Positions 3,324 to 25,663 of a stretch of DNA of 39,514 nucleotides are shown piece after piece (the stretch's first letter is position 1; each line of letters opens with the position of its first letter). A model generated the notes under the pieces. The model was given only the letters and a program-made list of their open reading frames with translations. It did no database searches and was not told the origin of the DNA. A program made the position numbers and the translations under genes. The DNA lies in the NCBI GenBank assembly GCA_028683655.1, contig JAQUHK010000005.1, positions 1 to 39,514 of the forward strand, written 5' to 3'. Source of the stretch: Alphaproteobacteria bacterium. Its GTDB lineage: Bacteria > Pseudomonadota > Alphaproteobacteria > UBA9219.

Positions 3324-3352
3324 CTTACTTGGGGCGAGAAACAGGAGCTTCG

Positions 3353-4546
3353 ATGCTTAAGACACTTTTATCAACTCTCTCCCCTTATTCCCCGCGTCTT
3401 GTTGGCGGCCTTGGTTTATCCCTTCGCCGCGCCCGCAAGGCTTGTGTTGTGGTGTTTGGCCTCGGATTTCTGTTTCTCGCTTCGCTTTCTTCGCCTGCCC
3501 ATGCGACTTCTCGCCTCAAGGATGTTGTGGATTTCGAGGGTGTGCGCGACAATATGCTGATCGGCTATGGCCTTGTGGTCGGCCTGAATGGCACGGGCGA
3601 CAGCCTGACCAATTCCCCTTTCACCGAAACCAGCCTTGTGGGCATGCTAGAGCGTCTGGGCGTCAACACGCGCGGCACCAGCATGAAGACCAAGAACGTC
3701 GCTGCCGTGATGGTAACCGCGACGTTGCCCGCCTTTTCGTCTCAGGGCTCGCGGGTTGATGTGGTGGTTTCGACGCTCGGCGATGCCAAGAGCCTGACGG
3801 GCGGCACCTTGCTGGTCACCCCGCTGCTTGGCGCGGATGGCGAGGTTTACGCTGTGGCGCAGGGGGCCTTGGCCGTCGGCGGGTTCAGTGCGCAGGGACA
3901 GGGTACGTCGGTGACCAAGGGCGTGCCGACATCCGCCCGCATTGCAAACGGAGCGATTGTCGAGCGCGAAATCCCTTTCCGTCTGGCTGATTTGGGCTCT
4001 ATGCGCTTGTCGCTGCGTAACCCTGACTTCACGACGGCGGACCGTATTGCGGAATCAATTAACCAGCATTTCCATACGCAAGCGGCTTCGGCCATAGATG
4101 CGGCGACGGTGCGCGTTCTGGTGCCCGATGCCCGCCGTCATGACGTTGTGGGCATGATGACCGAGATTGAACAGCTGCAAGTCGCACCCGATCAGGTTGC
4201 ACGGGTCGTCATCGACGAGCAATCCGGCGTGATCGTGATGGGCGAGAATGTCCGCATTAACACGGTCGCGATTGCGCAGGGAAATCTGACCATCCGCATC
4301 ACCGAAACCCCGATGGTGTCCCAGCCCGCGCCGTTTTCGCAGGGTGATACGACCTCTGTGCCGCGCACGGAGCTGGCCGTAGATGAGGGGGCTGGCAACA
4401 AGATGGCCGTGATAAAGACGGGGGTGAGCTTGCAGGACATGGTGCAAAGCCTCAACGCTTTGGGCATCGGGCCGCGCGATATGATCACGATTTTGCAATC
4501 CATCAAGGCGGCGGGTGCTCTGCAAGCCGATCTTGAAGTGATTTAA
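3353..4546 (+). CDS. flgI: Flagellar basal body P-ring protein FlgI
   Basis: FlgI forms the periplasmic P-ring around the flagellar rod. The protein (397 residues from ATG 3353) has a long N-region and signal sequence (VVVFGLGFLFLASLSSPAHA), then the family's hallmark start of the mature protein, SRLKDVVDFEGVRDNMLIGYGLVVGLNGTGDS, and the C-terminal KTGVSLQDMVQSLNALGIGPRDMITILQSIKAAGAL split here by description only. A TTG eight codons upstream is in frame but precedes the sigma-54 transcription start, and CAGGAG sits five bases before ATG 3353, so this start is preferred. First gene of a five-gene plus-strand flagellar operon. Confidence 0.96.
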   Translation: MLKTLLSTLSPYSPRLVGGLGLSLRRARKACVVVFGLGFLFLASLSSPAHATSRLKDVVDFEGVRDNMLIGYGLVVGLNGTGDSLTNSPFTETSLVGMLERLGVNTRGTSMKTKNVAAVMVTATLPAFSSQGSRVDVVVSTLGDAKSLTGGTLLVTPLLGADGEVYAVAQGALAVGGFSAQGQGTSVTKGVPTSARIANGAIVEREIPFRLADLGSMRLSLRNPDFTTADRIAESINQHFHTQAASAIDAATVRVLVPDARRHDVVGMMTEIEQLQVAPDQVARVVIDEQSGVIVMGENVRINTVAIAQGNLTIRITETPMVSQPAPFSQGDTTSVPRTELAVDEGAGNKMAVIKTGVSLQDMVQSLNALGIGPRDMITILQSIKAAGALQADLEVI

Positions 4547-4561
4547 GGGAGGGTCAAGTCC

Positions 4562-4897
4562 ATGGAAGCCATTGTTCCCGATGTCAGCGTTCTAAGCTCG
4601 ACGCAGACAAGCTCTTTCAATCGCAAAGGAATTAACCTCGCAAAAGCCGAGAAGGCCGCCAAGGATTTTGAAGCCGTGTTCATGTCTCAGATGCTTAAGC
4701 CTATGTGGGAGGGCGTGAAGACGGACGGGATGTTCGGTGGCGGAGTCGGCGAGGACACAATGCGCGATTTGTTGTTGCAGGAATATGGCAAGTCGATGGT
4801 GAGGAATGATCAGTACGGCCTTTCTCCCGCACTTATGGACGCGATGATCCGCATGCAAAATCAGGCCGATGGCGTTCAGCCCGGCCCGACGGTTTAA
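4562..4897 (+). CDS. flgJ: Rod-binding protein, FlgJ N-terminal domain type (CheL-like)
   Basis: A 111-residue protein corresponding to the rod-binding (capping) domain of FlgJ. Evidence is AAKDFEAVFMSQMLKPMWEG followed by MFGGGVGEDTMRDLLLQEYGK, both hallmarks of the family. It lacks the C-terminal muramidase domain of enterobacterial FlgJ, which is normal in alphaproteobacteria, where the equivalent gene beside flgI is called cheL in Caulobacter. A separate lytic enzyme must then open the peptidoglycan; none is visible in this window. A GGAGGG Shine-Dalgarno precedes the ATG, and it lies 15 bases after flgI. Confidence 0.9.
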   Translation: MEAIVPDVSVLSSTQTSSFNRKGINLAKAEKAAKDFEAVFMSQMLKPMWEGVKTDGMFGGGVGEDTMRDLLLQEYGKSMVRNDQYGLSPALMDAMIRMQNQADGVQPGPTV

Positions 4898-4923
4898 TTG
4901 GAAAAGACGAAAAGGAGACGATC

Positions 4924-5403
4924 ATGACAGAAGCGACGGATGGACAGACAAGCCGCGAAAGCGAGTACGAGAAGATTGTTGAATCCTCTATGGCCGTGAT
5001 GAGCGAGCTGGCCGTCGTCCTTGATCAGGAAACGGCACTGGTCGGCAAAAAAGACGCGGCAGAAATAGCCGCCGTCCGCGCCGAAAAGGCCAAGCTGATC
5101 CGCGATTATCGCTCCAGCATGACCATCGTGATCCAGAACCCTGATTTGCTGGAAAAACTGGCGGCTTCGACGCGGGCACGCCTCAAGCAAATTGGCGAGG
5201 TTCTTGCAACAGCAACAGAGAAGAATGTCAAGACGCTGAAAGTGGCGGTCGAGGCGACACAGGCTTTGGTGGGAACGATCATGGAAACGGCACGCAAGCA
5301 GTGCAAAGCGCATGACAGTTACAGCGACCCGCGCAAGCTACCGTCTGGACAGCCGGCTTATGCAGGGGATGTGATGGCGGTCGCGGTGAACCGGACGGCC
5401 TAA
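4924..5403 (+). CDS. Flagellar coiled-coil protein, FlgN/FlbY-like
   Basis: A 159-residue, almost wholly helical soluble protein without signal peptide. The pattern (ESEYEKIVESSMAVMSELAVVLDQE, AAVRAEKAKLIRDYRSSM, long helix, then an unstructured Pro/Ser end) resembles FlgN-type chaperones for hook-associated proteins. Position supports this: in Caulobacter the gene after flgI and cheL is flbY, a flagellar gene of similar size. An AAAAGGAG Shine-Dalgarno is placed 4911-4918. I infer a cytoplasmic export-chaperone role; sequence similarity alone is too weak to be certain. Confidence 0.65.
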   Translation: MTEATDGQTSRESEYEKIVESSMAVMSELAVVLDQETALVGKKDAAEIAAVRAEKAKLIRDYRSSMTIVIQNPDLLEKLAASTRARLKQIGEVLATATEKNVKTLKVAVEATQALVGTIMETARKQCKAHDSYSDPRKLPSGQPAYAGDVMAVAVNRTA

Positions 5404-5441
5404 GATACGGGTGGGACAAGAGGTTAAGGAAAGGATCGGTC

Positions 5442-7076
5442 ATGGCTTTTGGTGCAGAAACCCAAACGGTACTATCAAGCGAGAAAACCCTCTCTTCGCT
5501 CCTGTCTTCCCTGCGTTCGCGGACAGGCACAAGGGCCAGCGCGACGCAAGGTGGCTTTGCCAGCCTGTTGGCCGAAACGGGGGCTTCCGAAGTCTCGAGC
5601 CGATCGGCGCGGGAGGCTCGTTCAGCGCGCGAGGCCGATGAGCCTGCCAGTCAGCAAACTGTGACCGACGGTTCATCGGACGATGCGCGCGGCGAAAGCA
5701 AGGCAGCCCGCACTGCACCCGATGAGCCGGTGCGCGAGGCCCCGGCCAGCAAGGCCGAGGCATCCGACAAAGATAATCCCAACGACGAAACAGAGCTTTC
5801 GGCGCGTGATGAGTCGGCAAGCGACGATGCGACACAAGAGTCCGCGTCAGCTGACACGGTTACCGAAGAAGGTGCTGCCGCTTCGGGGAAGAAGAAAGCC
5901 GACGCGAACGACGATGGAGAGTTGGAGGCCAAGGTGGCGGCCTTCATCCCTTTGGATGGTTGTCCTGCGTCGCAAGTCGCGACCGGCGACGCGGCGGAAG
6001 GCGACGCGGTGACCTCGCAGACAGCGAACGTGACGAAGACGATGCCGACGCAGCAGGCGACGACACCGGAGACGCCTCTGACACAAGCGGCCACGCCGGA
6101 CCTTCTGCCTTCGCAGACGAAGAAAAAAGATACGGCGTCGTCTGGTGAAGCCGAGTCGGTCCAAACGCAAGGTGAGGAGACGCTGACAAGCGCTCTTGAT
6201 AAGATTGCGGGCGAACTTGCGGCGGCCAAGACGCAAAAGGAAGGGCCAGGGCCTGATACGACTGAATCAGCCGACGTTGACGACATGCTGGCTGGCCTTG
6301 ACCTTGAGGCACTGGCGCAAAAAGCGGCCAATGACAAGGGATCGGCAGTCAAGGCCGCCATGTCCGATGCGCCTGTGCGCAACACCTTGGGTCAGAGCGG
6401 ACAGGAAACGGCGGTTGCGCAGCAAACAGCACAAAACACGGCCACGGCTGGCGTGGCCACGGCTGGTGCGGGTGCGGCAGCGACCACGGCGGCTTCGTCT
6501 TCGGGAGCTCAGGAAAATGGCAATGCTTCGGCGGCTAGTTCCTCCATCGGGCTGGCTTCGGGTGTGCGCAGCGCGATTTCCTATGGCACCGCCAGCGAAC
6601 TGTCGGCGGCGCGGGTGACCAAGGGCGGCACCACGGGGTTGCCTCAGGCCGTAGAGCAGGTTGCCGTTCAGCTCCATAAGGCGGCCAAGGACGGGACGGA
6701 TACGATCACGATCCAGCTTCGCCCGGGCGAGTTGGGCAAGATCGAAGTGAAGCTGGAGTTCGGCGCGGACAAATCCGTGACGGGCACAGTTATCGCCGAC
6801 AACCAGACGACGCTGAACATGCTGCAAAAAGATGAAGGCAGCCTGCAACGGGCTCTTCAGGAAGCGGGGCTTCAGGCCGATTCCGGTTGCCTCGAGTTTT
6901 CGCTGCGCGGCGATGGGGGGCAAAGCGCGTTTGCGCAAAGCCAGTCGGACGGCGGTTCGTCTTCATCAGGCGCAGGCCGCACGACGACGCAAGTTACCGA
7001 TACTCAAGCGGGTGAGACGACCACAGGCGTTGACTCCTATTACCTCACGCCTGGGCGCGTGAACATCCACGTTTAA
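5442..7076 (+). CDS. fliK: Flagellar hook-length control protein FliK
   Basis: FliK measures hook length and switches export specificity through FlhB. The 544 residues split into a long Ala/Thr/Ser/Asp/Glu-rich, disordered N-terminal ruler region (about 1-400) and a folded C-terminal Flg_hook domain (about 405-500). The domain shows TITIQLRPGELGKIEVKLEF followed by TGTVIADNQTTLNMLQ, a diagnostic motif. The tail after residue 505 is again Ser/Gly/Thr-rich. An AAGGAAAGGA Shine-Dalgarno precedes the ATG. Position between the FlbY-like gene and flgD suits the role. Confidence 0.93.
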   Translation: MAFGAETQTVLSSEKTLSSLLSSLRSRTGTRASATQGGFASLLAETGASEVSSRSAREARSAREADEPASQQTVTDGSSDDARGESKAARTAPDEPVREAPASKAEASDKDNPNDETELSARDESASDDATQESASADTVTEEGAAASGKKKADANDDGELEAKVAAFIPLDGCPASQVATGDAAEGDAVTSQTANVTKTMPTQQATTPETPLTQAATPDLLPSQTKKKDTASSGEAESVQTQGEETLTSALDKIAGELAAAKTQKEGPGPDTTESADVDDMLAGLDLEALAQKAANDKGSAVKAAMSDAPVRNTLGQSGQETAVAQQTAQNTATAGVATAGAGAAATTAASSSGAQENGNASAASSSIGLASGVRSAISYGTASELSAARVTKGGTTGLPQAVEQVAVQLHKAAKDGTDTITIQLRPGELGKIEVKLEFGADKSVTGTVIADNQTTLNMLQKDEGSLQRALQEAGLQADSGCLEFSLRGDGGQSAFAQSQSDGGSSSSGAGRTTTQVTDTQAGETTTGVDSYYLTPGRVNIHV

Positions 7077-7088
7077 GGAGTTTTGACC

Positions 7089-7814
7089 ATGACAGCCGTC
7101 GGTTCAACAGATAACAGCTCGATCCTCAACAGCTATATCGCCTCGCAAAAGGCGGCGGAGAAGACGGCTTCGACCACAACGAGCGACAGCACCTCGTCGC
7201 TTAACGCGGATTTCAACACCTTCTTGCAAATCCTGACGGCTCAATTGTCTAATCAGGATCCGACAAGCCCCATGGATGCCAGCGAGTTTACCTCGCAGCT
7301 TGTTCAATATTCAGAAGTCGAACAACAGATGGCGACGAACGACAAGCTGGATGATGTGCTTTCGACGCTCAATTCCAACGGCATCACGCCGCTGTTGAAT
7401 TACGTTGGGCAATATGTCGAATCGTCAACGGATGGCGAGCTTGTGGTGCAAAACGGGCAAGCCTTACTCGCTTATACCTTGCCGTCCGAGGCGCAAAGCG
7501 TCGTCATTTCGGTTCAGGATAGCGATGGCGACGTTGTTGCCAAAATTGATGGCACTACGACTTCCGGCATGAACCGTGTGGCATGGGATGGCACGCTGGA
7601 TTCCGGTGAAGCCGCCGAAGATGGCGTGTATAAGTTCGTTATGACAGCCAAGAACAGCAATGGCGATTTGCTAACAACCAGTGATGTGCGCACGATCGGT
7701 CAGGTGACAGGAATTGAAACGGACGATGATGGCGTGGTTCATCTGATGGTCGGCCAAAAAGAAATCGACGATACGGACATCAAATCCATCTTCGCCGCCG
7801 TCGCCACGTCGTAG
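7089..7814 (+). CDS. flgD: Flagellar hook assembly protein FlgD
   Basis: FlgD caps the growing hook and guides FlgE assembly. The 241 residues contain the N-terminal family motif DFNTFLQILTAQLSNQDPTSP with DASEFTSQLVQYSEVEQQM, followed by a Tudor/FnIII-like C-terminal part (AWDGTLDSGEAAEDGVYKF). A TTG two codons upstream is in frame, but AAGGAG at 7075-7080 is spaced correctly for ATG 7089. fliK ends at 7076, so the Shine-Dalgarno overlaps its stop codon. It is the last gene of the flagellar operon visible; the hook gene flgE, often next, is not here. Confidence 0.95.
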   Translation: MTAVGSTDNSSILNSYIASQKAAEKTASTTTSDSTSSLNADFNTFLQILTAQLSNQDPTSPMDASEFTSQLVQYSEVEQQMATNDKLDDVLSTLNSNGITPLLNYVGQYVESSTDGELVVQNGQALLAYTLPSEAQSVVISVQDSDGDVVAKIDGTTTSGMNRVAWDGTLDSGEAAEDGVYKFVMTAKNSNGDLLTTSDVRTIGQVTGIETDDDGVVHLMVGQKEIDDTDIKSIFAAVATS

Positions 7815-8004: not shown

Positions 8005-8541
8005 TCACTTCAGCGACAGGCTATCCCAAGCCATGGGGCCTTCGTGGACGGCGAGGACTTGGCCGTCCGGCGCGACAAGATAGGTCGTGGGCAGGACGGG
8101 ATTCTTTGCTGGTGCAATCACTGTGCCCAGCGGGTCATAGCACAGCTCCAAAGACAAGATGCCGTTGCGTTTGCCGAAAGCCGGCACGGTGATGTTGCCA
8201 TGAGGGTCTTCCGCCAGCGTCATGATGACAAGCCCCTCATCCGTCAGCCGCCTGTGCTGCGCGTCGATGGCTTTCATTTCGGGCCCGCAAGCTTTGCAAA
8301 ACGGAGCCCATAGATGCAGCAAGACCGGTTTGCCTTGAGCGCGGGCCTTAAAGGCCTGAGTTAGGTTGGCCGGGCGCGTGTTGGGGCAATAGACCAGAAT
8401 GTCGGGTAATTTGACGGGGCGTTCCAGCTTTGTGAAGCCGTTGGTAGGCTTTGCCGCTGCGGATGTTGCCCAAAAGCAAGCCGTCAGGAGGGAAAACAGC
8501 AGAAAACGTGAAAGGAGTGTTGCGCAGGAGGGGGCAGACAT
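8005..8541 (-). CDS. TlpA/ResA-like thiol-disulfide protein, secreted
   Basis: A thioredoxin-fold protein expected in the periplasm. The core is KPVLLHLWAPFCKACGPEM, with an active-site CKAC (a CxxC) in the usual WAxxC context; later PVLPTTYLVAPDG gives the cis-proline segment (TTYLVAPDG). The N-terminus LSRFLLFSLLTACFWATSAAAKP is a signal peptide. Upstream in-frame starts exist (ATG 8559, TTG 8577), none with a good Shine-Dalgarno; 8541 puts the signal peptide at the start. Such proteins reduce or oxidise cysteines, for example in cytochrome c maturation; the substrate cannot be told here. Divergent from the LptM-like gene, about 40 bases away. Confidence 0.85.
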   Translation of the reverse strand: MSAPSCATLLSRFLLFSLLTACFWATSAAAKPTNGFTKLERPVKLPDILVYCPNTRPANLTQAFKARAQGKPVLLHLWAPFCKACGPEMKAIDAQHRRLTDEGLVIMTLAEDPHGNITVPAFGKRNGILSLELCYDPLGTVIAPAKNPVLPTTYLVAPDGQVLAVHEGPMAWDSLSLK

Positions 8542-8582
8542 TTTACATTCAAGGGGCATGAAGGTCGGAGATACCAAGGACT

Positions 8583-8792
8583 ATGTCACTCTTTAAAGAC
8601 AAAGATCAACAGCGCGCGACCCGTCACAAGCTTTGGGCCTGTGCTTTCTTGGTGTGCCTGCTTGTCGGCCTGTCTGGTTGCGGCAAAAAACCTTCCTTTG
8701 TCGATCCCCCCGTTTCGGCCAAGGGCGAATCGACCTATCCCCGCACCTACCCTGCGCCTGATCCGGTTTTGGATAAGGATGGGGGCTCATGA
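8583..8792 (+). CDS. Small LptM/YifL-like lipoprotein
   Basis: A 69-residue lipoprotein precursor. A positive N-region is followed by a hydrophobic stretch and a lipobox ending LSGCG (Cys near residue 33), then a Pro-rich tail with STYPRTYPAPDP. Small lipoproteins of this kind regularly precede lysA in proteobacteria; the enterobacterial one, LptM (YifL), binds the LPS translocon LptDE. Homology to LptM is inferred from size, the CGKK-P pattern and location. Its stop overlaps the start of the next gene in an ATGA at 8789-8792, implying coupled translation. Confidence 0.75.
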   Translation: MSLFKDKDQQRATRHKLWACAFLVCLLVGLSGCGKKPSFVDPPVSAKGESTYPRTYPAPDPVLDKDGGS

Positions 8793-9982
8793 CGAAAGTT
8801 TCGTTCGCCTATCATAACGGGGCCTTGTGCGTTGAAGCCTTGCCGGTTTGCGAACTGGTGTCCGAGATCGAGCCGCCCTTCCTGTGCACCAGCTCTTTCC
8901 GGTTGAAACAGGAAATTGCCGCGCTCACGCGGAGCTATAAGCGCGATTTGATGGTTTCCCCTTGCTATGATTTCAAACAGGTCACCAGCGTGGCGACGGC
9001 GGGCCTTTGGGCCGCGCAGGGGTGCGGCGCGTGTGTGACTTCCTCTGGCACGATTGAAAAGGCGATCGAGGCGGGCTTTAGGCCTTCCGCGATGCTGCTG
9101 ACGGGCTATGGCAAGTCTTGCGACGATCTGGCCTCGGCCCTTTTGTGCGAAACGCCGCTGCTCACCGCCGGAACAGTCGGCGAAATCGAGCTGATCGGCG
9201 CGGTTGCGACGGCTTTGGGGCGGATGGCCCCTGTCGCCTTGGTTTGCCGGTTCGAAACAGGTATGGGCCGCTATGGCTTTGCTGTGGATGAACTGGCTGA
9301 CGCTTTTGGGGCCATGACACGGGAAAGCCATGTCGATTTTGCCGGTTTTGCGCTGACCTTGCCCGCCGCGCGCGCGCGGGCGGAAAAAGCCCTTTATGAC
9401 ATGGCCAAGCTTGTCCATATGATCCGCACCCAAGGCTTCGCGCCGACAAGCTTGTTGCTGGATTTCGAGGACGAGGCGGCGACGGGTACGCTTGCCGGAC
9501 TGCTGGGGCCTGTGGCGACGGTGACGGCATGCCGCGTTCATGTCCGTCTGGGTGCTGTGGCGATGCAAAAGGCGCGGCTTCTCGCTGCTCGGGTTCTGCG
9601 GGTCGATTCCGGCGCGACGGGCCTTGTTGCCGTTCTGGATTTGGAGGTTTTGCCCAAGGCGCAGGATGCCGCCAGCCCTTATTGCACCGAAAGTATTGGG
9701 CTTTATCCGACAGATCCGGCCAGCCGGATGGACGCGGTCCTGTTCGTGGATCGCAGGGGCACGCCGCTTTGCTCAAGCTGTGTGATGCCTGTTTTGTCGC
9801 GCGGCGATGTGGTGTGCCTTGGCGGGTTCGATACGGCGTTGCTGCGCGATTTGTTGCAGGTGCCAGAGATTTTGGTGTCCGGTGCGCGCTTTGTGCAGGT
9901 CCGCAGGCGGATCGCCACGGCGGAACAAACAGGATGGGAGGCCGGTTTCGAGCTGCCGGTAGGTATCGACCGTGCCGCGTAA
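8789..9982 (+). CDS. Degenerate diaminopimelate decarboxylase (LysA) homologue
   Basis: The 397 residues align along their full length with LysA, the fold-type III PLP enzyme that makes lysine. Matches include the start (YHNGALCVEALPV), CYDFK with the PLP lysine K63 in place of CYAMK, LLTGYGKS for the FSGVGKT segment, and the end VPEILVSGARFVQVRRR. Yet the functional motifs are lost: HIGSQ reads ALTLP, the GGGLG loop reads DFEDE, EPGR reads VRLG, the catalytic CESGD reads LSRGD, and the AGAY tyrosine is absent; the KxxTGKxxNKFG segment is shortened to ETGMGRYGF. The gene is intact and sits in the usual lysA slot (after the LptM-like gene, before DUF4175). A non-catalytic or repurposed protein is likely. 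Confidence 0.7.
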   Translation: MTKVSFAYHNGALCVEALPVCELVSEIEPPFLCTSSFRLKQEIAALTRSYKRDLMVSPCYDFKQVTSVATAGLWAAQGCGACVTSSGTIEKAIEAGFRPSAMLLTGYGKSCDDLASALLCETPLLTAGTVGEIELIGAVATALGRMAPVALVCRFETGMGRYGFAVDELADAFGAMTRESHVDFAGFALTLPAARARAEKALYDMAKLVHMIRTQGFAPTSLLLDFEDEAATGTLAGLLGPVATVTACRVHVRLGAVAMQKARLLAARVLRVDSGATGLVAVLDLEVLPKAQDAASPYCTESIGLYPTDPASRMDAVLFVDRRGTPLCSSCVMPVLSRGDVVCLGGFDTALLRDLLQVPEILVSGARFVQVRRRIATAEQTGWEAGFELPVGIDRAA

Positions 9983-11951
9983 TGAGCCCAAAAAACGGTT
10001 GCGAAAGTTTCTGGAAGCGCGGGCGCGCCGGACGGCGGTGCGTCGCTCAAATGGGGCCTCGATGCAGTCGGGTGGCTTTTCCGGTCTTTTAGTCCCGTTC
10101 CTCTTCGCCCTTTTTTATGGCTTGGCGGTGGCGTTTTGCCTTTTTTCGCCAGTCATTTTCTGGAGCCATGTGCTGGCGGTCGTTGTTTTGTGCCTGTGGG
10201 TCGCCGTCGCGTTTCGTCAGGACAAAGGCTATTGGGCCTACAGAACTCATGTCCTTTTCGGTCTGGTGTTTGTCGCTGCCGTCGTGGGGGGATCCGTTTG
10301 GCCGTTTGGTCGCGTGACGGGGCTTTCCATGACCGTCGTGCCGCCGCCTTACACACACCTTGCGGCACAGACGTTTGAGCCTGAGCACAAGGAATTGGTG
10401 CCGACGGTGGTGGAGGGCAGCGTGTTGCAATGCACCTGGGAACAGGACGACCCGGCCTCGGTCATGCGGTTCATGCAAAAAGAAGAGCCAATGACGGATT
10501 CCGGCGACGGGGTAGCGGTGGCCAGCATGGTTGCGCCGTCTGTCACCCAAAAAGAAACCAAGCCGCTGGTTCTGTTTCGCGGGCTGCGGCGGCTGGCGGT
10601 GTGGCGTGTGGCCATCGTGCCCGATCGTGCGCCGAGCATTACGTTGATTGAAGAGCCGGAGATCACGGCGCGCAAGACGATGCGTTTTGCCTACAAGGCC
10701 AGTGACGATTACGGCGTTGAATCGGTTTCTGTCCGCATCGCCCCGACGACATCGGCGGCGGGCGTGAGCATGGAGCCGGTCGAAATGCTGCTCGATACGC
10801 CGGTTGGCAAGGAGATCGACGCGGCGCGTTATGCCGACCTGACCTCCCTGCCATGGACGGGGATTCCCGTGACGATCCAGTTGGTGGCGACCGACGGGGC
10901 GGGGCACAAAGCGTGGAGCAACTCGAAGATCGTGACCTTGCCCTCGCGGACCTTTCGCAATCCTTTTGCGCGGGCTTTGATCGAGGAGCGGCAGAAACTG
11001 GCCAGCCAGACGGATACGGCGGCGCGGGACGAGGCCGCGAATGTGATGGCGGGCATCGCGCGGCAACAGGGGCTTTATCACGGCGATCCGCTGGTGATGA
11101 TGAGCTTGCGCTCGGGAGCCGTGCGGCTGGTATTGAATGACTCGCGCGACACGCGGGCGGCGGTGAACGCCATTTTGTGGCAAGCCGCTGTGCGGCTTGA
11201 GGAAGGCGAAGTCGGCAAGGCGCGTCAGGAGCTGGCAGAGGCCGAGCGCGTGCTGAGTGCCGGACTGGCGCACGGCTTGGCGGGCCAGCAAGTGCGCCCA
11301 ATGGTTCTACGCGTACGCAAGACGATGACGGCTTATTTTGCGGCCATGGAGCGCGAGCGGGCGCGCCAACCTCCCGCCTTGCAGGAGCTGGACTGGCCTT
11401 TGGCGACGGCCAGCGAGATGCTGACCCCCGACGATTTGCAAAACCGTTTGGTAGCGGTGGAGGACCAGTTGGCCTCTGGCGATAATGAAGCGGCGCGGGT
11501 TTCGCTGGCGCGCTTACAGGTTCTGATCGAAAATCTGCGCACGACGTCGCCGGAGTTGACTCCTGCGCAAAGCCAGATGATCCAGCAGGTTTCCGTTTTG
11601 CGAATGCTGGTCAAAGGGCAAAAGGAATTGATGGACGAGGTCGCGCATCTGGGGACGGGCAAGCCCAAGACGCTGAAGGAGAAAAAAGCAAGTGAGGCCG
11701 CCTGGTCCCGCGCCGTGGCGCAGCAACAGTTTTTGAATGCGGCCTTGCGTGAGACGATGACACGACAGGGGCTTAGCCTTGTTGACTCGCAGGAAGGTAG
11801 CGAGTCCATGAAACAGGCTTTGTCGTTGCTTCAGCAAAAAGAGCTGGACAAGGCGCAGACCAAACAGGCCGAGGCCCTTTTGATGCTTGAGAAAAGCCTG
11901 GATGCCATTTCCGACCAGATGCGCCATTCGCTGGCCTCGCGGATGCCTTAG
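9972..11951 (+). CDS. DUF4175 (TIGR02302-type) membrane-anchored protein
   Basis: A 659-residue protein with two to three N-terminal membrane helices (residues about 33-60, 62-80 and 88-108) and a large periplasmic part. That part has a beta-rich Ig-like stretch (TMRFAYKASDDYGVESVSVRI, about 235-330) and then long helices rich in Glu, Gln and Arg. These features and the place after lysA match the alphaproteobacterial TIGR02302/DUF4175 family, of unknown function. Family members are usually longer, with a Gly/Gln-rich C-terminal region; here that tail is missing or reduced. The GTG start at 9972 overlaps the previous gene by 11 bases. Confidence 0.8.
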   Translation: MPRNEPKKRLRKFLEARARRTAVRRSNGASMQSGGFSGLLVPFLFALFYGLAVAFCLFSPVIFWSHVLAVVVLCLWVAVAFRQDKGYWAYRTHVLFGLVFVAAVVGGSVWPFGRVTGLSMTVVPPPYTHLAAQTFEPEHKELVPTVVEGSVLQCTWEQDDPASVMRFMQKEEPMTDSGDGVAVASMVAPSVTQKETKPLVLFRGLRRLAVWRVAIVPDRAPSITLIEEPEITARKTMRFAYKASDDYGVESVSVRIAPTTSAAGVSMEPVEMLLDTPVGKEIDAARYADLTSLPWTGIPVTIQLVATDGAGHKAWSNSKIVTLPSRTFRNPFARALIEERQKLASQTDTAARDEAANVMAGIARQQGLYHGDPLVMMSLRSGAVRLVLNDSRDTRAAVNAILWQAAVRLEEGEVGKARQELAEAERVLSAGLAHGLAGQQVRPMVLRVRKTMTAYFAAMERERARQPPALQELDWPLATASEMLTPDDLQNRLVAVEDQLASGDNEAARVSLARLQVLIENLRTTSPELTPAQSQMIQQVSVLRMLVKGQKELMDEVAHLGTGKPKTLKEKKASEAAWSRAVAQQQFLNAALRETMTRQGLSLVDSQEGSESMKQALSLLQQKELDKAQTKQAEALLMLEKSLDAISDQMRHSLASRMP

Positions 11952-12271: not shown

Positions 12272-13897
12272 ATGGATCACAAGACTGAACTTTTGTTACC
12301 GGCGGGGTCGCTGGAGCGGCTTAAGGTGGCGGTGCTGTATGGGGCGGATGCCATCTATATGGGCACGCCGGATTTGTCGCTTCGCACGCGCTCGGTCCTG
12401 ACGCTTGAGGATGTGCGGGAGGGCATTGCTTTTGCGCACGCGCAGGGCAAAAAGGTTTACCTGACGCTCAATCTGTTTTCGCATAACCGCGATCTTCCGA
12501 AGCTGCCCGCCTTTATCGACACGATCCGCGACATCCGGCCCGACGGGGTGATCGTCGCGGATATTGGCGTTTTTGATCTGGTGCGCGAGCACCTTCCCGC
12601 GATCGAGATTCATATCTCGACGCAGGCGAATGTCTGTTCATGGTTGTCGGTTCAGGCGTGGCAGAAGAAGGGAGCCTCACTGGTGGTGCTGGCGCGGGAA
12701 GTTTCGTTTGAGGAGCTGAAAGAAATCCGCGAACGGTGCCCTGACATCAAGCTGGAGGTTTTCGCGCATGGTGCGATGTGCATGACCTATTCGGGGCGGT
12801 GTTTGCTCTCCAACTTCCTCGCCGAGCGCGGCGCCAATCAGGGGAACTGCGCCAATTCCTGTCGCTGGCATTACAAGCTGCACGTGCGGCGCAAGGATGG
12901 TTCCCTGCACGAGGTGGAGGTGACCGAAGAAAACAAGGACGTGTTCGCCTTCTTTTTGCAAGAAGAGCAGCGGCCCGATGATTTTTTGGAGATACAGGAA
13001 GACGAACGAGGCTCCTATATCCTCAACAGCAAGGATTTGTGTTTGATGCCGGTGCTGGACCAGTATCTGGCCCTTGGTGTGGATTCGCTCAAGATCGAGG
13101 GGCGTAATCGCAGCGCGTATTATACGGCGGTGACGGCGCAAGCCTATCGTCGCGCGATTGACGCTTGGCGGCGCAATCCGGACGGCTGGTCGCCGGATTC
13201 CTATATGCGCGAACTGCGGCTTATTCCCAATCGTGGCTATACGCAGGCTTTTCATGCGGGCAAGCTGACGCATCACGCGCATAACTACGAAGACACCCAT
13301 ACGCTCGCGCCGTGGGAATATGCAGGGATCATCCGGCAAGTCGGCGCGGATGCTTTCTTCATGGAGGTCAAGAACCGGATCGAGCAGGGCGAGGTTCTGG
13401 AGTTTATGGCCCCTGATGGCGGGCCATCCGTGCTGTTGCGGATTTACACGTTCGAGGATGTGCAAAACAGGCGCACGACGGCGGAGGAAGGAATTAATGC
13501 GGGGCAAAAGCCGCTGATACGGATTCCCTTTGCGTGGTTTCATGAAGAAGAGCCTGCGACGCTGATGGCGCGGTTTCCGGCCTTCACGATTGTGCGCAAG
13601 GCCGCCGTATTGGGGGATGAATCGGTGGAAAGACTAAAGCTTGACCGGATCGCGCAAGCGGCCGAGCGCGGAGAGGACAACGAAGCGGCCTATCAACAGC
13701 AGCGCGATAAAACGGTGCAGGGGCTGGAGGCAGCCAAAGAGGGCAAGACTTTCCGTGCGCCGAAGCTGGGGGCAGAGGGCTGCTGCGGTCGCGGGTGTAA
13801 CGGCTGCCTGCATTTCTGGCATGATGAGAAATTCGCCAAGGCGCGCGAGAAGCTGCGAACCAAAAAACAGGGCGAGCTTTTATCTTCTACAGATTGA
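12272..13897 (+). CDS. U32 family protein (TrhP/RlhA type RNA hydroxylation or peptidase-like)
   Basis: A 541-residue peptidase-U32-family protein. Evidence: LLLPAGSLERLKVAVLYGADAIYMG at the N-terminus (described in part), HISTQANV, and the diagnostic cysteine cluster around residues 169-198 (AHGAMCMTYSGRCLLSN, GNCANSCRW). In studied members (TrhP, RlhA, UbiU/V) these cysteines bind an iron-sulfur cluster and the proteins serve tRNA, rRNA or ubiquinone hydroxylation rather than proteolysis. The C-terminus carries a second Cys-rich motif, CCGRGCNGCLHFW (about 506-519), seen in longer members. Which of the U32 reactions it performs cannot be decided. Last gene of the plus-strand cluster. Confidence 0.88.
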   Translation: MDHKTELLLPAGSLERLKVAVLYGADAIYMGTPDLSLRTRSVLTLEDVREGIAFAHAQGKKVYLTLNLFSHNRDLPKLPAFIDTIRDIRPDGVIVADIGVFDLVREHLPAIEIHISTQANVCSWLSVQAWQKKGASLVVLAREVSFEELKEIRERCPDIKLEVFAHGAMCMTYSGRCLLSNFLAERGANQGNCANSCRWHYKLHVRRKDGSLHEVEVTEENKDVFAFFLQEEQRPDDFLEIQEDERGSYILNSKDLCLMPVLDQYLALGVDSLKIEGRNRSAYYTAVTAQAYRRAIDAWRRNPDGWSPDSYMRELRLIPNRGYTQAFHAGKLTHHAHNYEDTHTLAPWEYAGIIRQVGADAFFMEVKNRIEQGEVLEFMAPDGGPSVLLRIYTFEDVQNRRTTAEEGINAGQKPLIRIPFAWFHEEEPATLMARFPAFTIVRKAAVLGDESVERLKLDRIAQAAERGEDNEAAYQQQRDKTVQGLEAAKEGKTFRAPKLGAEGCCGRGCNGCLHFWHDEKFAKAREKLRTKKQGELLSSTD

Positions 13898-14950: not shown

Positions 14951-16531
14951 TTGTCTGCACGCAATGCGCTTCATCGCATGCTCGATACCGTTTCTTTGGG
15001 AGAAAACGGCGCAGATCGGGAGCCTTCGGCTGCTGGCGCCAGTCCCGAGAAAATGGAAGAGGTTCGTCTTCGTCTTTCCTCGATCATGCAGGAAGTGGCG
15101 AACGTTGCGGTTGATGAGGCAGGCAAGGTTCGCGATGATCGTCACGATCCCTCGTTGGCTTTACGCTGGTTTGTTCCGCTTGATGCGCTGGTATTTGTGG
15201 TGGCGTTTTATGCCGCATGGATCGGTGTCGTTGTTTTTCATACCGTCTTTTTAAACGAGCCAATGCCATCTTTGGGTGAGGCTTCGATGGCCTATTACGG
15301 TCTGACGGCCATGGGCGCGATGCTCTGGTTTGCTTACAAGGGCCAGTATAGTCGCCGGATGCCGTTCTGGATGGAGGTCCAGAAGATCGTCAAGGTCATG
15401 GGCTTTTCGATGCTGGTTCACGGCTTTGTTCAGTTTGCGGCGAAGGTCGATTTTTCGCGCCTATGGCTGATGGCGGGATGGGTTTTTGCGGCATTCGGCC
15501 TTATTCTGGCGCATGCTGTTGCGCGTGTCCTCATGCACCGGAGGGGGATATGGCAGGTGCGCACGCTTCTGGTCGGAAGTGGCTTGATGGCCGAAGAGGC
15601 GCGCTCGGCTTTGCGGACAGAGCCCGGTCTGGGTTACGAAATCGTTGCCAATGTCGAGGATTTGGGCAGCACGTTGGAGCGGTTCAACGGGTCGTGGACC
15701 CGTTTGTGCGATCGCTATCATGCGGACTATGTGATTGTTGCCTTGGAGGGTCCCGAATTGGCGGCGGCGGATGAGGCTATTGCGTCTTTGGTTGAGTCCG
15801 GTTTGCCCTTCTCGGTCACGCCGCCTTTGCGTCATTTGCCTGTTTTGGGCATGGCGGCCCAGTATTTCTTCAGCCATGACGTGATCTTTATGTCTCCCGT
15901 CGATAATCTGGAGCAACCGATCCCCCGCTTTGTCAAGCGGGCCATGGATGTGCTTGTTTCCGGCGTTGCGCTGGTCCTTTTGTCGCCACTGTTTTTGATC
16001 CTTGCCGTCTTGATCCGACGCGATGGCGGTCCGGCCTTCTTCGGTGATAAGCGGATTGGGGTGCGGGGCAAGATTTTCTATTGCCTGAAATTCCGGTCCA
16101 TGATCATCAACAGCGATGCTGTGTTGACGCGCTATCTTGAAGAAAATCCCGAGAAGGTTCAGGAGTGGGAGACTTATCGCAAGCTGCGCGACGGCGACCC
16201 GCGCGTGACGAAGGTCGGGGCCTTCATGCGGCAATGGAGCATTGACGAATTGCCCCAGCTGATCAACGTGCTACGCGGCGACATGAGTTTGGTGGGCCCA
16301 AGGCCGATCATGTTCACCGAAAAAGACATTTATAAAAACGGTATGGCTCTATATAGCCGTGTCCGGCCTGGGTTGACCGGGCTGTGGCAAGTCAGCGGGC
16401 GGAATAATGTGACCTTTGCCCGTCGCGTTCAAATGGAATCGTGGTATGTGCGCAATTGGTCATTGTGGCACGACATTGCTATTTTATGTAAGACGGTCCC
16501 CGTTTTGTTGAAAAAGACGGGTGCTTATTAA
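14951..16531 (+). CDS. Polyprenyl-phosphate sugar-1-phosphate transferase (WbaP-like, EPS initiation)
   Basis: This membrane enzyme starts the repeat unit by moving a sugar-1-phosphate from a nucleotide sugar to undecaprenyl phosphate. The 526 residues show a soluble N-terminus, four membrane helices (about 70-195), a CoA-binding-like domain (about 200-290) and the C-terminal bacterial sugar transferase domain. The latter has KRAMDVLVSGVALVLLSP, FRSM, the DELPQLINVLRGDMSLVGPRP motif and RPGLTGLWQVSGRN. The architecture fits TIGR03025-type enzymes; the sugar is unknown. The start is TTG 14951 with AAAGAGG upstream; ATG 14978 is an alternative. First gene of the EPS locus. Confidence 0.93.
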   Translation: MSARNALHRMLDTVSLGENGADREPSAAGASPEKMEEVRLRLSSIMQEVANVAVDEAGKVRDDRHDPSLALRWFVPLDALVFVVAFYAAWIGVVVFHTVFLNEPMPSLGEASMAYYGLTAMGAMLWFAYKGQYSRRMPFWMEVQKIVKVMGFSMLVHGFVQFAAKVDFSRLWLMAGWVFAAFGLILAHAVARVLMHRRGIWQVRTLLVGSGLMAEEARSALRTEPGLGYEIVANVEDLGSTLERFNGSWTRLCDRYHADYVIVALEGPELAAADEAIASLVESGLPFSVTPPLRHLPVLGMAAQYFFSHDVIFMSPVDNLEQPIPRFVKRAMDVLVSGVALVLLSPLFLILAVLIRRDGGPAFFGDKRIGVRGKIFYCLKFRSMIINSDAVLTRYLEENPEKVQEWETYRKLRDGDPRVTKVGAFMRQWSIDELPQLINVLRGDMSLVGPRPIMFTEKDIYKNGMALYSRVRPGLTGLWQVSGRNNVTFARRVQMESWYVRNWSLWHDIAILCKTVPVLLKKTGAY

Positions 16532-16559
16532 TTTGTGATCTTGTTGAGCGGGTTGGTTC

Positions 16560-17630
16560 ATGGCGCATTGTGTTCTTTTGTCCTCGGAAGAGGATGTTGT
16601 TGCTATAGCCGACGCATGGCGTGGGCTTCATGCGCGGGTTGGTCTTTCACCCTTTACCGATTATGATTGGGCGATGACATGGTGGCGGCTTATTGCCAAA
16701 CCCGAAGGGGCCGGAATCCTTGTCGCCGCGTGTTATGACGGCGATCGTCTTGTTGCCTTGTTGCCCTTTTCCATCCGGCTGAAATATGGTGTCAAGGTTT
16801 TGCGGTTGATCGGGCACGAGGTTTTTTATTACCGCAATTTTCTTTTTGAAACGCCCGATGTCGTGCCGCTTGCCTTTCAGGCGGTTATGGATTCTTCCCT
16901 TTACGACTGTGCCCAGATTAAAAATATTCATGAAGGAACGCCGGAAGATGCGTTCATGGCAAACCATGCCTATTTGCGCGAGGCCACGCACGTTCATCAC
17001 ATGGAACATGCCGGCAAGACCGAGGCAACGCTTTTTGACGGGCGGTCCAGTTCGACGCGCCGCCACTTCAAGAACATCGCCAAGACGGTACGTAAGACAC
17101 CTGATCTGGCCTATCATTTTGTCGAAAATGAAATGCCGCCAGCCGAGGTGATGGATTTTCTGCTCAAGCGCAAAAAGGCGTGGACGGTCGAAAACAAGAA
17201 ACACGGCATTTTTTCGGAACCCGCGTGTGACGCTTTTTATCGTGAGGTCACGGCTTTGGGGGCCCTGAAGAAGAACTTGTTCTTCAATTGGCTTGTTTAT
17301 CAGGGAAAGATTGTCGCGGCGGCGGTTAACTTTACCTGTGCGAATACGGTTTATTTCCACACCGCGACCTATGATCCTTTGGTGGCTCAATTGAAGGCGG
17401 GGCTTTTCCTGTGCCTTCAGGCCTCTGTCTGGGGGGCTGAAAAGGGGGTTGCCGAAACCAATTACATGGAAGGCGAAGAGGATTACAAACAACGGTTTAG
17501 CCGCCTTTTTCGCGTGACGAAAGAATATGTCTTTTGCTCGACCTTGAAAGGCAAGGTTTTTCTTTTCCTGCTTCATATGCAACTGTGTATGCGGCGGCTT
17601 GGCCGGTCCAAGCCCCAAGCGGGAGAGTAA
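16560..17630 (+). CDS. FemAB/CelD-like GNAT acyltransferase
   Basis: A 356-residue cytoplasmic protein with a GNAT-fold C-terminal half of the BcsL/CelD (Acetyltransf_6) type. Visible signs are SPFTDYDWAMTWW near the N-terminus, then SSSTRRHFKNIAKTVRK, FNWLVYQGKIVAAAVNF and the Asp/Glu-rich ending of the fold, NYMEGEEDYKQRFSR. Members of this group occur in many EPS and cellulose loci and may add acyl or aminoacyl groups to the repeat unit. The acyl donor and acceptor cannot be inferred. It lies 28 bases after the initiating transferase and three bases before a GT4 gene, consistent with one transcript. Confidence 0.82.
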   Translation: MAHCVLLSSEEDVVAIADAWRGLHARVGLSPFTDYDWAMTWWRLIAKPEGAGILVAACYDGDRLVALLPFSIRLKYGVKVLRLIGHEVFYYRNFLFETPDVVPLAFQAVMDSSLYDCAQIKNIHEGTPEDAFMANHAYLREATHVHHMEHAGKTEATLFDGRSSSTRRHFKNIAKTVRKTPDLAYHFVENEMPPAEVMDFLLKRKKAWTVENKKHGIFSEPACDAFYREVTALGALKKNLFFNWLVYQGKIVAAAVNFTCANTVYFHTATYDPLVAQLKAGLFLCLQASVWGAEKGVAETNYMEGEEDYKQRFSRLFRVTKEYVFCSTLKGKVFLFLLHMQLCMRRLGRSKPQAGE

Positions 17631-17633
17631 GCC

Positions 17634-18812
17634 ATGCGGATTTGCGAGATTATTGAATCGTCGGGAGGCAGCGTCAGGGCCGCCATTGATCTGGCCAAGG
17701 CCTTGGTAGAGCAGGGAGATGATGTTGCCTTCGTTTACTCGCCGATCAGGGTCGAGCCGTTCTTTGTTGAGGAAATTCGCGCGATCAAGGGGCTTCATCC
17801 TTTTGCGCTGCCCGTGCGCCGGGCTTTGGGCTGGCGCGATTTGGTCGCGACGGTGCGGTTGATCTCTTTTCTGGCCAAGACCGGCCCCTATGACGTGCTG
17901 CACGCGCACAGCTCGAAGGCAGGCGGGATCATGCGGTTGGCCGGACTGTTTTTTCCTTCGGCGGCCAAGATTTATACGCCTCACGCTTTTGTCACGATGT
18001 CGCCTTCGGTGTCGCCTTTTTATGCGCTGATTGAAAAGGGGCTTTCTTATTTGTGTGACAGGATCATTGCCGTTTCCTCGCTTGAGAAGGACCATGCCGT
18101 CAAGCATATCGGGATCGATGCCCGCCTGGTCGAGATTGTGCCGAATGCCGTTGTCACTGATGTCGAGGCTTATACCGGATGCGGCAACCGCGAGCAGCTG
18201 CGCCGAGAGCTTCACTTGGCAGAGGGTGAAATGGTTCTCGGGTTTGTCGGGCGGCTCGACGAACAAAAGAATGTAAGGCGGCTAGCCGATGTTTTTGCTG
18301 CGGCTTTCGCTCGTCATGAGCAGGTCCGGCTTGTCGTCATCGGCGATGGAAACGAGCGCGCGGCGTTTGAAGCGCGGTTGGCACAGCACGGCTTAACCGG
18401 CAAAGCCCTTTTGCTGGGGTGGCAGGAAGCGCGAGGTTATTATACGCTGTTCGATGCGTTGGTGTGCAGCTCTGATTACGAGGGATTCCCGCTGGTTTTT
18501 CTTGAGGCTCTTGTCTGTGGCGTGCCGATTGTGACAACGCCTGTCGGCGGCGCGGCGGAAGCGGTCATTGACGGCAAGACGGGCTTTATTGCCTCGGCTT
18601 GCAGCGACGAGGCTTTGGAAGAGGCCTTGGAAAAGTTTTTGGTTCTTACTGTGGGTGAGCGCGAACGGATGAGCCATGAATCGTTTGTTCACAGTCGCGT
18701 GTTTTCGCACAAGACGACAAGTCAGGCCGTGCGGGCCATTTACCTGCGCTGCTTGAAGGAAAAAAGTGGTGATAAGACGGCCTCCACCGGAGAATGGAAG
18801 AGGCTTTTATGA
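17634..18812 (+). CDS. Glycosyltransferase family 4 (first)
   Basis: A 392-residue GT-B fold retaining glycosyltransferase. The N-terminal domain begins MRICEIIESSGGSVRAAIDLA and has DVLHAHSSKAGGIMRLAG; the C-terminal domain has FVGRLDEQKNVRRLADVF and the GT4 E-x7-E motif in SSDYEGFPLVFLEAL followed by GVPIVTTPVGGAAEAV. No membrane segment or signal, so it acts at the inner face of the membrane on the lipid-linked sugar. Similar enzymes include capsule and O-antigen GTs. A GGAGAG Shine-Dalgarno precedes the ATG. Its stop overlaps the next start as ATGA (18809-18812). Confidence 0.93.
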   Translation: MRICEIIESSGGSVRAAIDLAKALVEQGDDVAFVYSPIRVEPFFVEEIRAIKGLHPFALPVRRALGWRDLVATVRLISFLAKTGPYDVLHAHSSKAGGIMRLAGLFFPSAAKIYTPHAFVTMSPSVSPFYALIEKGLSYLCDRIIAVSSLEKDHAVKHIGIDARLVEIVPNAVVTDVEAYTGCGNREQLRRELHLAEGEMVLGFVGRLDEQKNVRRLADVFAAAFARHEQVRLVVIGDGNERAAFEARLAQHGLTGKALLLGWQEARGYYTLFDALVCSSDYEGFPLVFLEALVCGVPIVTTPVGGAAEAVIDGKTGFIASACSDEALEEALEKFLVLTVGERERMSHESFVHSRVFSHKTTSQAVRAIYLRCLKEKSGDKTASTGEWKRLL

Positions 18813-19750
18813 CGGAGCGGCCTCTTGAGAAAATCTATTTCGTTCATGAGGGGCTGGCCGCCTATCCCGAAATCGCCGCGTACCAATCCTTCTTTGTGAA
18901 CACGTTTGCGGGCGAGGAAATCCGGCCTGAAGCTTTGGCGTCTCGCCCTGACGCAGCGAAGGCCCTGGCTTGGCATATGATGGGTTTTTATCCGAGGCGA
19001 GGGCCGACACGCTTTGTGCTTCATGATTATCGTTCGCTGTCTGTCGGGCGGTGGCACGGCCTTAAGGACGGGATCAAGCGGTTTTTTTGTGCGCGTCCCG
19101 ATCTGCGGGTTTTCCAGAATGTGGAGATGGCGGCGGCGATGGGGTTTCGCGATAATGTGCCAACCTTCTTTTTGCCGATGGGGGTGCCTGCCTCGATTTT
19201 ATCTCTGCGCAAGGAACCTGTGGCTGAGCCTGATTGCGATTTTTGTTATATCGGCGTTCTGTCGCAGGAACGGCAAAGCTGGCGGATGATTGACAGCTTT
19301 CTCAAGCGGTTTGGAACAAGCAAGAGCTTTCATTTGTACGGCACGCCCGAAGAGTCCATCGCGGCCCGTTATCGGGATCGCGCCAATGTTGTGTTTAAAG
19401 GAACGGTCCCGCAGGAGGCGGTTTTCCGCGCCTTGCGTCGAGCGCGGGTGGCGGTGAATTATTTTCCCGACCATTTCCCTCATAGGCTTCAGACGCCGAC
19501 AAAATTGCTTGAATATGCCGCGCTGGGGCTTCGGGTTTTGTCGAACGAGCATCCACAGTCCCGCTTGACGGTGGCGCGGTATGGGGTGCGCTCTTTGTGG
19601 GGGCGCAGCGCGGATATGTTTCGCGATGTGCCGGACGCGCTGGATTGGGACGATAATGCGGGTTTCGATCCGACGCCGCTTTTGTGGCCGTCGGTGATTG
19701 CGGCGAGCGGTGTGCCTGAGGCGGTGGAGGCTTTATGTGGCGGTCAATAG
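18809..19750 (+). CDS. Putative glycosyltransferase, GT-B like
   Basis: A 313-residue cytoplasmic protein, probably a glycosyltransferase. The C-terminal half has the GT1/GT4-like signature QTPTKLLEYAALGLRVLSN, with FKGTVPQEAVFRALRRARVAVNYFP before it, and DFCYIGVLSQERQSWRMID resembles a Rossmann start. The N-terminal half is divergent and I find no close family name. I choose ATG 18809, which overlaps the previous stop (ATGA) and has GGAAGAGG before it; an in-frame ATG at 18794 lies inside the previous gene. It overlaps the next gene by 16 bases. Confidence 0.75.
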   Translation: MTERPLEKIYFVHEGLAAYPEIAAYQSFFVNTFAGEEIRPEALASRPDAAKALAWHMMGFYPRRGPTRFVLHDYRSLSVGRWHGLKDGIKRFFCARPDLRVFQNVEMAAAMGFRDNVPTFFLPMGVPASILSLRKEPVAEPDCDFCYIGVLSQERQSWRMIDSFLKRFGTSKSFHLYGTPEESIAARYRDRANVVFKGTVPQEAVFRALRRARVAVNYFPDHFPHRLQTPTKLLEYAALGLRVLSNEHPQSRLTVARYGVRSLWGRSADMFRDVPDALDWDDNAGFDPTPLLWPSVIAASGVPEAVEALCGGQ

Positions 19751-21036
19751 GTAAGGTTAGCTTGGTGCTGGGCGTTCTTGGCGTTTTGGCGTCGGGCGCG
19801 GTGTGCGCACAGGCTTCCGCTTTGCCGCCGCCTGTGTTCGGCGCGGCGCAAGGCGTGCAGATCAAGGAATGGAGCGTCACAGACCGCGAGCTTGAGATGA
19901 TGAAAGCGGCGGGCTTATCCTTCGTGCGCTTTCCCATGCCTTGGTACGCTGTGGAAAAAAACAAAGGCCGTTTTGACTGGCGCGTTTTTGACGGTGTTGT
20001 CGAGCGGCTGCACGATCACGGATTGAAGGCGGTCATTATTCTGGGGGCAGGTCATCCGGCTTATACTGGCGTGGCCGAGCAACAGCATGAGGACGGCACG
20101 CTAGAGGAAACCTATCCCGCGCCCGTAACGCCCGAAGAGATTGACGCTTTTGCTGCCTATGTCCGTGCGGCGGCGGCACATTTTGACGGCAACGGCGTTG
20201 TGTGGGAATTGTGGAACGAGCCGGATTCGCGCTTGTTCTGGTACCCCAAGCCCGATGGCGCGGCCTATGTCGCCATGGCGGTTCCGGCTTGCCGCGCGAT
20301 CAAGGAAGCGGTACCCGACTCCGTTGTGATGGGGCCGGGCATGGCGGCGATGGCGGGCGGTGACGACGCGGCGGCTTCCGCTTTTCTGGGACAGGTGTTG
20401 AAATCGCCTTTGGCCTCGTGTCTGGATGCGGTGTCGCTTCATCCTTATCGTGATCGCGCGGTCCCGCCGGAGCTGGTGCTTGAGGCTTATGCGAAAACAC
20501 GCGCCTTCATCGAGGCGCACACGCCGGACGGGATGGAGCCTTTGCCGCTGGTGGCCTCGGAGTGGGGTTTTTCGACGGCGGAAGTTTCATCTGACGCGCA
20601 GGCGGATTATGCGCTGCGGTCCTTTTTGCTGAACGTCATGGACGATGTGCCCTTGTCGATCTGGTATGAATGGTACGATTCCCTGACGGGCGAGGCCGAT
20701 CCCGAGGCGCATTTCGGGTTGATCGATCATGACAAAAAGCCCAAGGTTGCTTACGAAGTGTTAGCCTCATTTTTGCCTGCCTTGACGGGCTGCGTGTTTG
20801 AGGCGCGGATTGCCCTGCCGGATCCGTTGGACTATCTGGTGGTTTTCCGGCGCGAGGATGGCAGCGGGGCCGTTGTTTACTGGACGGCAAGGCCTCAGAC
20901 AGAGCTTTCGGTGCAAGTTGCGATCGGCGATTCCAACGAAAAGAAAACCCTGACCTTGCGCAATAGGCCGCAAATGAAGCCGCTGGTGGTGGATGAGATG
21001 GTCGCACTGGCAGGCGGGGAAGGCGGGGCGGAATGA
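19735..21036 (+). CDS. Secreted glycoside hydrolase, GH39/PslG-like
   Basis: A 433-residue TIM-barrel glycosidase with an N-terminal signal peptide (SLVLGVLGVLASGAVCAQASA). The clan-A residues are present: the acid/base E162 in VVWELWNEPDS and the nucleophile E276 in LVASEWGFST. LSFVRFPMPWYAVEKNKGRFDW is typical of GH39/GH5-like enzymes (shown in part here). In Pseudomonas the related PslG sits in the Psl locus, trims polymer and aids its export. Here it lies between a GT and the Wzy gene, so a similar periplasmic role on the nascent EPS is likely. Overlaps both neighbours; its TGA overlaps the next ATG. Confidence 0.83.
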   Translation: MWRSIGKVSLVLGVLGVLASGAVCAQASALPPPVFGAAQGVQIKEWSVTDRELEMMKAAGLSFVRFPMPWYAVEKNKGRFDWRVFDGVVERLHDHGLKAVIILGAGHPAYTGVAEQQHEDGTLEETYPAPVTPEEIDAFAAYVRAAAAHFDGNGVVWELWNEPDSRLFWYPKPDGAAYVAMAVPACRAIKEAVPDSVVMGPGMAAMAGGDDAAASAFLGQVLKSPLASCLDAVSLHPYRDRAVPPELVLEAYAKTRAFIEAHTPDGMEPLPLVASEWGFSTAEVSSDAQADYALRSFLLNVMDDVPLSIWYEWYDSLTGEADPEAHFGLIDHDKKPKVAYEVLASFLPALTGCVFEARIALPDPLDYLVVFRREDGSGAVVYWTARPQTELSVQVAIGDSNEKKTLTLRNRPQMKPLVVDEMVALAGGEGGAE

Positions 21037-23508: not shown

Positions 23509-23663
23509 GGCGCAGGGTGCTTGAGCGAAGAAAGAAAAAGGGGGGGCGTTAAAAGCTGTTCAGAGCCTTCCTGTTTATGATACCCATCCGTGCAGTGGGC
23601 AGCAAATAAAATAGTGGGTGCCGGGCTTTTTGCGCGGGTGCCAGACGAGAAGGGATTTTGGGA

Positions 23664-24935: not shown

Positions 24936-24980
24936 CCTGAAAAGGGCGGAAAGGCTCGATCCGTACAATTTGAGATAAAA

Positions 24981-25003
24981 TTGATAATATCTAATATTAT
25001 CAA
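24981..25003. promoter_or_regulatory. Perfect 10-3-10 inverted repeat, candidate operator
   Basis: Arms TTGATAATAT (24981-24990) and ATATTATCAA (24994-25003) match perfectly around CTA. The site lies in an AT-rich 132-base gap, 64 bases before the start of the metalloprotease-like gene, well placed for a regulator of that gene. The stem is too AT-rich for a good terminator and no T-run follows. Confidence 0.5.
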
Positions 25004-25067
25004 TAGTTAAGCGTTACTTAGGCTTAATCAGCTACAGTGGGAACATCATAAGAGGCGTGGTGTTACC

Positions 25068-25592: not shown

Positions 25593-25637
25593 ACAGGTCC
25601 TAGCCTTTTAATCATATTTAATCGCATTAACTCAAAA

Positions 25638-25663
25638 GGGCCGCCTTCGAGCGGCCCTTTTTT
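25638..25663 (+). terminator. Rho-independent terminator after the metalloprotease-like gene
   Basis: Stem GGGCCGC (25638-25644) and GCGGCCC (25651-25657) with loop CTTCGA, followed by six T. Four A before the stem can pair with the T-run, so it may also work on the minus strand. It separates the gene at 25068 from the next transcript. Confidence 0.92.

Follow-up and report, generated by a model that had tools for sequence, protein, structure and literature searches.

The window analysed here, 39,514 nucleotides long, makes up all of contig 76 in a draft genome (G000; 2.28 Mb, 207 contigs, 94.45% complete). The genomes compared with it included five congeners (G001 to G005), four of which (G001, G003, G004 and G005) have a canonical LysA at the corresponding locus, and a genome from another genus of the same family (G013). 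Flagellar genes (flgI to fliK and flgD, positions 3329 to 7814, forward strand), which evolve at a normal rate, served as the synteny anchor. A divergent gene for a TlpA/ResA-like thioredoxin-fold protein (8005 to 8577, reverse strand; AhpC-TSA 33.6 bits), syntenic in the canonical congeners, lies upstream of three forward-strand genes: a small LptM-like lipoprotein gene (8583 to 8792, 69 aa), a degenerate lysA orthologue of 397 aa with an intact frame (8789 to 9982) and a DUF4175/TIGR02302-like gene (9972 to 11951, 659 aa; PF13779 243.8 bits). As predicted, the stop codon of the LptM-like gene overlaps the lysA start in an ATGA (8789 to 8792). The GTG start of the DUF4175 gene lies within the end of lysA, and the resulting 11-nt overlap (9972 to 9982, GTGCCGCGTAA) was kept in G001 to G005, including the degenerate G002; the canonical congeners have the identical sequence there, with TAG in G004 as the one difference.

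The order flgI to fliK-flgD, tlpA-like (reverse strand), lptM-like, lysA and DUF4175 was common to G003, G004 and G005 and was partly present in G001. The lysA neighbourhood was indeed kept, as had been claimed: the lptM-like/lysA/DUF4175 block, with both joints overlapping, occupies the place that it has in the canonical congeners. By blastp, a homologue of the LptM-like gene was found upstream of lysA in G001, G003, G004 and G010, and an LptM-like ORF was also present at the locus in G002 and G013. The score of the upstream gene in the window with the NCBIfam LptM model (NF047847) was 15.3 bits, below the cut-off of 27.7, and the gene is LptM-like by form and place only. In Rhodobacter, a TIGR02302 protein is a member of the CenR envelope regulon (PMC9275681). 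Immediately downstream of the DUF4175 operon, the window encodes a TrhP-like U32 peptidase-family protein (12272 to 13897, 541 aa), which scored under the equivalog cut-off, and positions 14951 to 31515 contain an exopolysaccharide cluster with a WbaP-like transferase, glycosyltransferases, an EpsL-like protein, an export protein and a chain-length/tyrosine kinase protein.

The lysA reading frame (397 codons) starts with ATG and contains no internal stop. When three canonical LysA sequences were used as tblastn queries against the window, residues 1 to 415 were covered in a single frame with no frame switch, and the lost motifs were absent from the matching place in the other frames, so that a frameshift hiding them was ruled out. 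The original prediction of an intact, full-length and co-linear LysA homologue without a frameshift was thus borne out. The protein passed the Pfam gathering cut-off for PF02784 (32.7 bits against 23.4) and failed that of the NCBIfam lysA equivalog (TIGR01048), which gave 58 bits against 297.9 and matched residues 9 to 151 only. A structure model built with 30 related sequences had a mean pLDDT of 83.5, and the structural superposition proposed as a check found LysA structures as its best PDB matches (Foldseek: 3vab, TM 0.82, 20% identity). Score and predicted fold both place the product in the fold-III PLP decarboxylase barrel (PF02784), and the locus and overlaps, which are those of the canonical congeners, support orthology to lysA by place and descent. 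The window gene is taken to be the vertically inherited lysA of its lineage, whose alphaproteobacterial character agrees with the TIGR02302-like neighbour.

The active-site motifs were compared with those of 27 canonical relatives, and residues are given below as G005 followed by the window protein. The PLP-binding lysine was retained (K62 to K63; codon 8975 to 8977, forward strand) as the single PLP-site residue kept, in the context YDFKQ and not YAVKA. Every one of the HIGS, GGG, EPGR, C-E-S/T-x-D and G-A-Y motifs was replaced or deleted: H201 to T190 and G203 to P192; GGG 239-241 to D225 plus a deletion; E275-P-G-R278 to R253-L-G-A256; the catalytic cysteine C345 to D321, with E346 to R322 and D349 to T; and G373-A-Y375 to G345-G-F347. 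Replacements were also observed at R314 (L288), Y318 (Q292), Y383 (L352) and N384 (R353), the NPDVDAKTH stretch was deleted, and TGxxxxKFG was shortened to TGMGRYGF. This matches the earlier description, in which K63 was kept while HIGSQ, GGGLG, EPGR, the catalytic Cys and the AGAY tyrosine were replaced and the TGKxxNKFG segment was shortened. In fold-III decarboxylases, the lost positions bind the PLP phosphate, the PLP ring or, across the dimer, the substrate; without them, decarboxylation of DAP would be impossible for the window protein.

No second lysA or other PF02784 gene was found in the window genome at its 94.45% completeness, and the search for a second canonical lysA, which had been suggested as a check, left the window gene as the only fold-III decarboxylase gene found. 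A degenerate, open lysA was present at the same locus in G002 (100% complete) and G013 (62% complete), and in each of the three genomes it was the only PF02784 gene found. The orthologues did not show the random decay with stop codons that had been considered in advance, the frames of both copies being open. Conservation of K63 among the degenerate orthologues, another proposed check, held for G013, where the equivalent lysine is kept, and failed for G002, where it is replaced (SYDLDHD). Across 33 genomes of the order, the PF02784 scores were 34-50 bits for the degenerate three and 111-200 bits for the other matches, with the exception of a 20.6-bit match in the polyamine-like cluster L155 of G015. 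The genes of this cluster (G015:C242:1000-9000), among them the one with the weak match, comprise two ornithine-decarboxylase-like paralogues, an agmatine-deiminase-like gene and genes of the carboxynorspermidine type. Two LysA-like genes were observed in G017, another genome of the family (G017:C61:32177-33412 and G017:C66:9530-10732), the second of which is less similar to the family's own and was possibly acquired. Among the matches listed from a profile search that covered 289 genomes of the class, no additional member of the degenerate subfamily stood out above canonical LysA, and close relatives sought in a contig collection were represented by a single distant match.

Identity among the three degenerate LysAs was 26-29%, and their end branches in the LysA tree were 2.61 for the window gene and 1.79 and 1.83 for the other two, against a median of 0.29. 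As the flgI (0.12) and flgD (0.22) branches of the window genome were ordinary, these branch lengths reflect a rate jump specific to lysA and not a fast genome. Support for grouping G000 with G002 in the species tree was 78/88. The three dead copies may stem from a single event: a clade uniting G000, G002 and G013 was not rejected (p-AU 0.09). Long branches affect the LysA tree.

Both the window genome and G002 contain dapA, dapB and murE, and G002 has dapF as well. dapF was not found in the window genome. In G004 and G005, dapF lies approximately 3.3 kb past the homologue of the window's first gene (4 to 405), and in the window genome it is probably just past the contig edge, in an assembly gap; given this position, the reading that a missing dapF means no DAP synthesis was set aside. 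The DAP branch seems to be kept for peptidoglycan, the loss being confined to the step that makes lysine. Since the degenerate lysA is the only lysA-like gene found, we predict that lysine synthesis has been lost and that the cell is probably a lysine auxotroph that depends on outside lysine. The original prediction had expected that, with this as the sole lysA, both lysine and possibly cell-wall precursor metabolism would be unusual; the first part agrees with these results, and the second gains no support, because the LysA step comes after DAP and the genome has dapA, dapB and murE.

argH above the family cut-off was not found in four of the six genomes of the genus (G000, G002, G004 and G005) and was present in G001 and G003. 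These absences seem to be in line with a lineage that is dropping amino-acid synthesis, with arginine synthesis patchy. Loss of argH from the lysA locus in the same event was ruled out, as the family does not have argH at this position. In G014, G017 and G018 (96-100% complete), murE was present with no dapA or dapB match. The dependent bacterium Micavibrio aeruginosavorus has also lost steps of amino-acid synthesis with metabolism otherwise kept, but whole pathways are missing there and pseudogenes are rare, whereas the window lineage carries a full-length, in-frame and apparently dead gene; lysine is outside the seven amino acids reported missing in Micavibrio (PMC3189940). It may serve as a parallel for the window lineage, not as an identification.

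With a draft genome in 207 contigs, a sequencing or assembly error might be suspected behind the window lysA. The original prediction had named such an error as the result that would speak against it, but canonical LysA aligns in one frame only, the change is spread across the whole gene, the flanking genes are normal and the same degeneracy was observed in G002 and G013; the probability of an error is therefore practically negligible. A plain pseudogene that by chance has gained no stop yet would fit the missense change in the window gene, which is close to neutral. In neutral simulations, however, 0.47-0.54 changes per site, approximately, were needed for the observed loss at canonical-invariant sites, and drift was expected to produce approximately 5 stop-making mutations per 202 codons, or about ten over the whole gene, together with several frameshifts. 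None was present in the window gene, the frame was likewise open in the other two genomes, and a pseudogene of this kind appears improbable. Because about ten stops were expected and none was seen, and because all indels relative to G005 (12/12) were in frame, the integrity of the frame has been under selection. The protein could also still carry out PLP chemistry in a rebuilt active site, with its old activity or a new one, as K63 is retained in G000 and its equivalent in G013, but the His, GGG, EPGR, Tyr and Arg contacts were lost or replaced differently in each genome and the PLP lysine was lost in G002, which makes this very unlikely. Among the readings first offered, the pseudo-enzyme is supported by the window gene being the only PF02784 gene found and by the comparable degenerate, open and sole copies of two relatives. 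A new PLP-binding protein and a new decarboxylase or racemase gained no support, since none of the three proteins retains the contacts to the PLP phosphate and ring or those to the substrate, which are lost or replaced, and G002 is without the lysine itself.

For this analysis we wrote a codon model in which the degenerate branch has a released phase. Over all columns, the lnL was -6561.6 for uniform neutral release, -6554.8 for one free omega and -6535.7 for class-specific omega. In the middle region only, the class-specific model exceeded the neutral one by 18.0 (G000), 23.0 (G002) and 6.9 (G013). When gap-free columns were used as a guard against misalignment, the gain was 7.3 in G000, against a null maximum of 4.0 in 12 null simulations, and 19.7 in G002, against a null maximum of 2.9. 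Under these models, uniform neutral missense drift is rejected, strongly in G002 and modestly in the window gene. The chemistry of the changes at invariant sites was clearly conservative in G002 and G013 and near neutral in G000, except for a raised hydrophobic fraction in the latter (8/300 simulations). The overlap of retained sites between G000 and G002 was above the neutral null (1.4% of simulations), and these two genomes had the derived states T29P, A61D, E88T, G192P and E253R in common; in gap-free columns, neither of the other two pairs showed a significant overlap. With the three degenerate sequences only, AlphaFold, which may recall the fold, predicted the barrel with confidence, at pLDDT values mostly of 80-96 for residues 80-220, and did not do so for the C-terminal domain. 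Our reading is that constraint on the window LysA may be strongly relaxed, not absent.

The explanation that we hold, with middling confidence, is a dead lysA in a lineage living on outside lysine, its frame kept mainly by the overlapping operon, with a weak folding constraint. DAP decarboxylase activity would have been lost, lysine would come from outside and the upstream DAP branch would be kept for peptidoglycan. As lysA is the middle cistron of the lptM-like/lysA/DUF4175 operon with its overlaps, translation of the envelope gene DUF4175 would be cut by any stop or frameshift in it, and the frame would be held open mainly in this way; grossly misfolding missense changes would be costly, and the product would be a translated, roughly LysA-shaped, dead protein. 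We infer both translational coupling as the cause of retention and the cost of misfolding. The near-neutral chemistry of the window gene at canonical-invariant sites speaks for this explanation. For termination-reinitiation coupling, the final ~15 nt of the upstream gene are enough (PMC10666635), so that large in-frame lysA deletions should be tolerated and coupling alone fails to explain the 397 (G000) and 407 (G002) codons that remain of 427. The codon-model results for G000 and G002 also argue against retention by the operon only. The main rival, a tentative possibility, is a selected non-catalytic protein whose barrel would serve a structural or regulatory purpose, perhaps one connected with the operon's envelope genes or with DAP/lysine binding. 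This would agree with the retention of the full length in three genomes, of which one measures only 1.5 Mb, with the site-specific constraint, strong in G002, and with the barrel still predicted by AlphaFold, subject to its possible recall of the fold; identity among the three proteins is low, however, no conserved new surface or motif was found in them, and the genome has no catalytic PF02784 paralogue to regulate. The conservative chemistry in G002 and G013 also favours such a protein, but the window gene is near neutral in this respect, and the retained-site overlap that accompanies the shared derived states of G000 and G002 did not extend to the other pairs. That a LysA-derived, PLP-free protein tied to the envelope operon has a structural or regulatory role in at least three species, from one ancestor, is unlikely.

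The window protein resembles LysA (TIGR01048; PDB 3vab, 4xg1) in length, order of elements, predicted fold, genomic place and PLP lysine, and differs from it in lacking nearly all PLP and substrate residues and in scoring far under the family cut-off. Antizyme inhibitor (PDB 3btn), a dead ornithine decarboxylase paralogue of animals that is kept as an intact gene, belongs to the same fold family, but it acts beside a live enzyme, whereas the dead copy of the window genome is the only one. The trypanosomatid prozymes, dead DHS and AdoMetDC paralogues, are likewise catalytically dead enzyme relatives retained as genes, but they activate a live partner (PMC3663545, PMC5201418), of which there is none here. 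With live and dead lysA copies at the same place within one genus, this lineage may offer a clean case to separate two causes of open dead genes, the use of the protein and the demands of an operon with overlapping genes. If such genomes were annotated by gene place and length, they would be assigned a lysine synthesis that is most likely absent.
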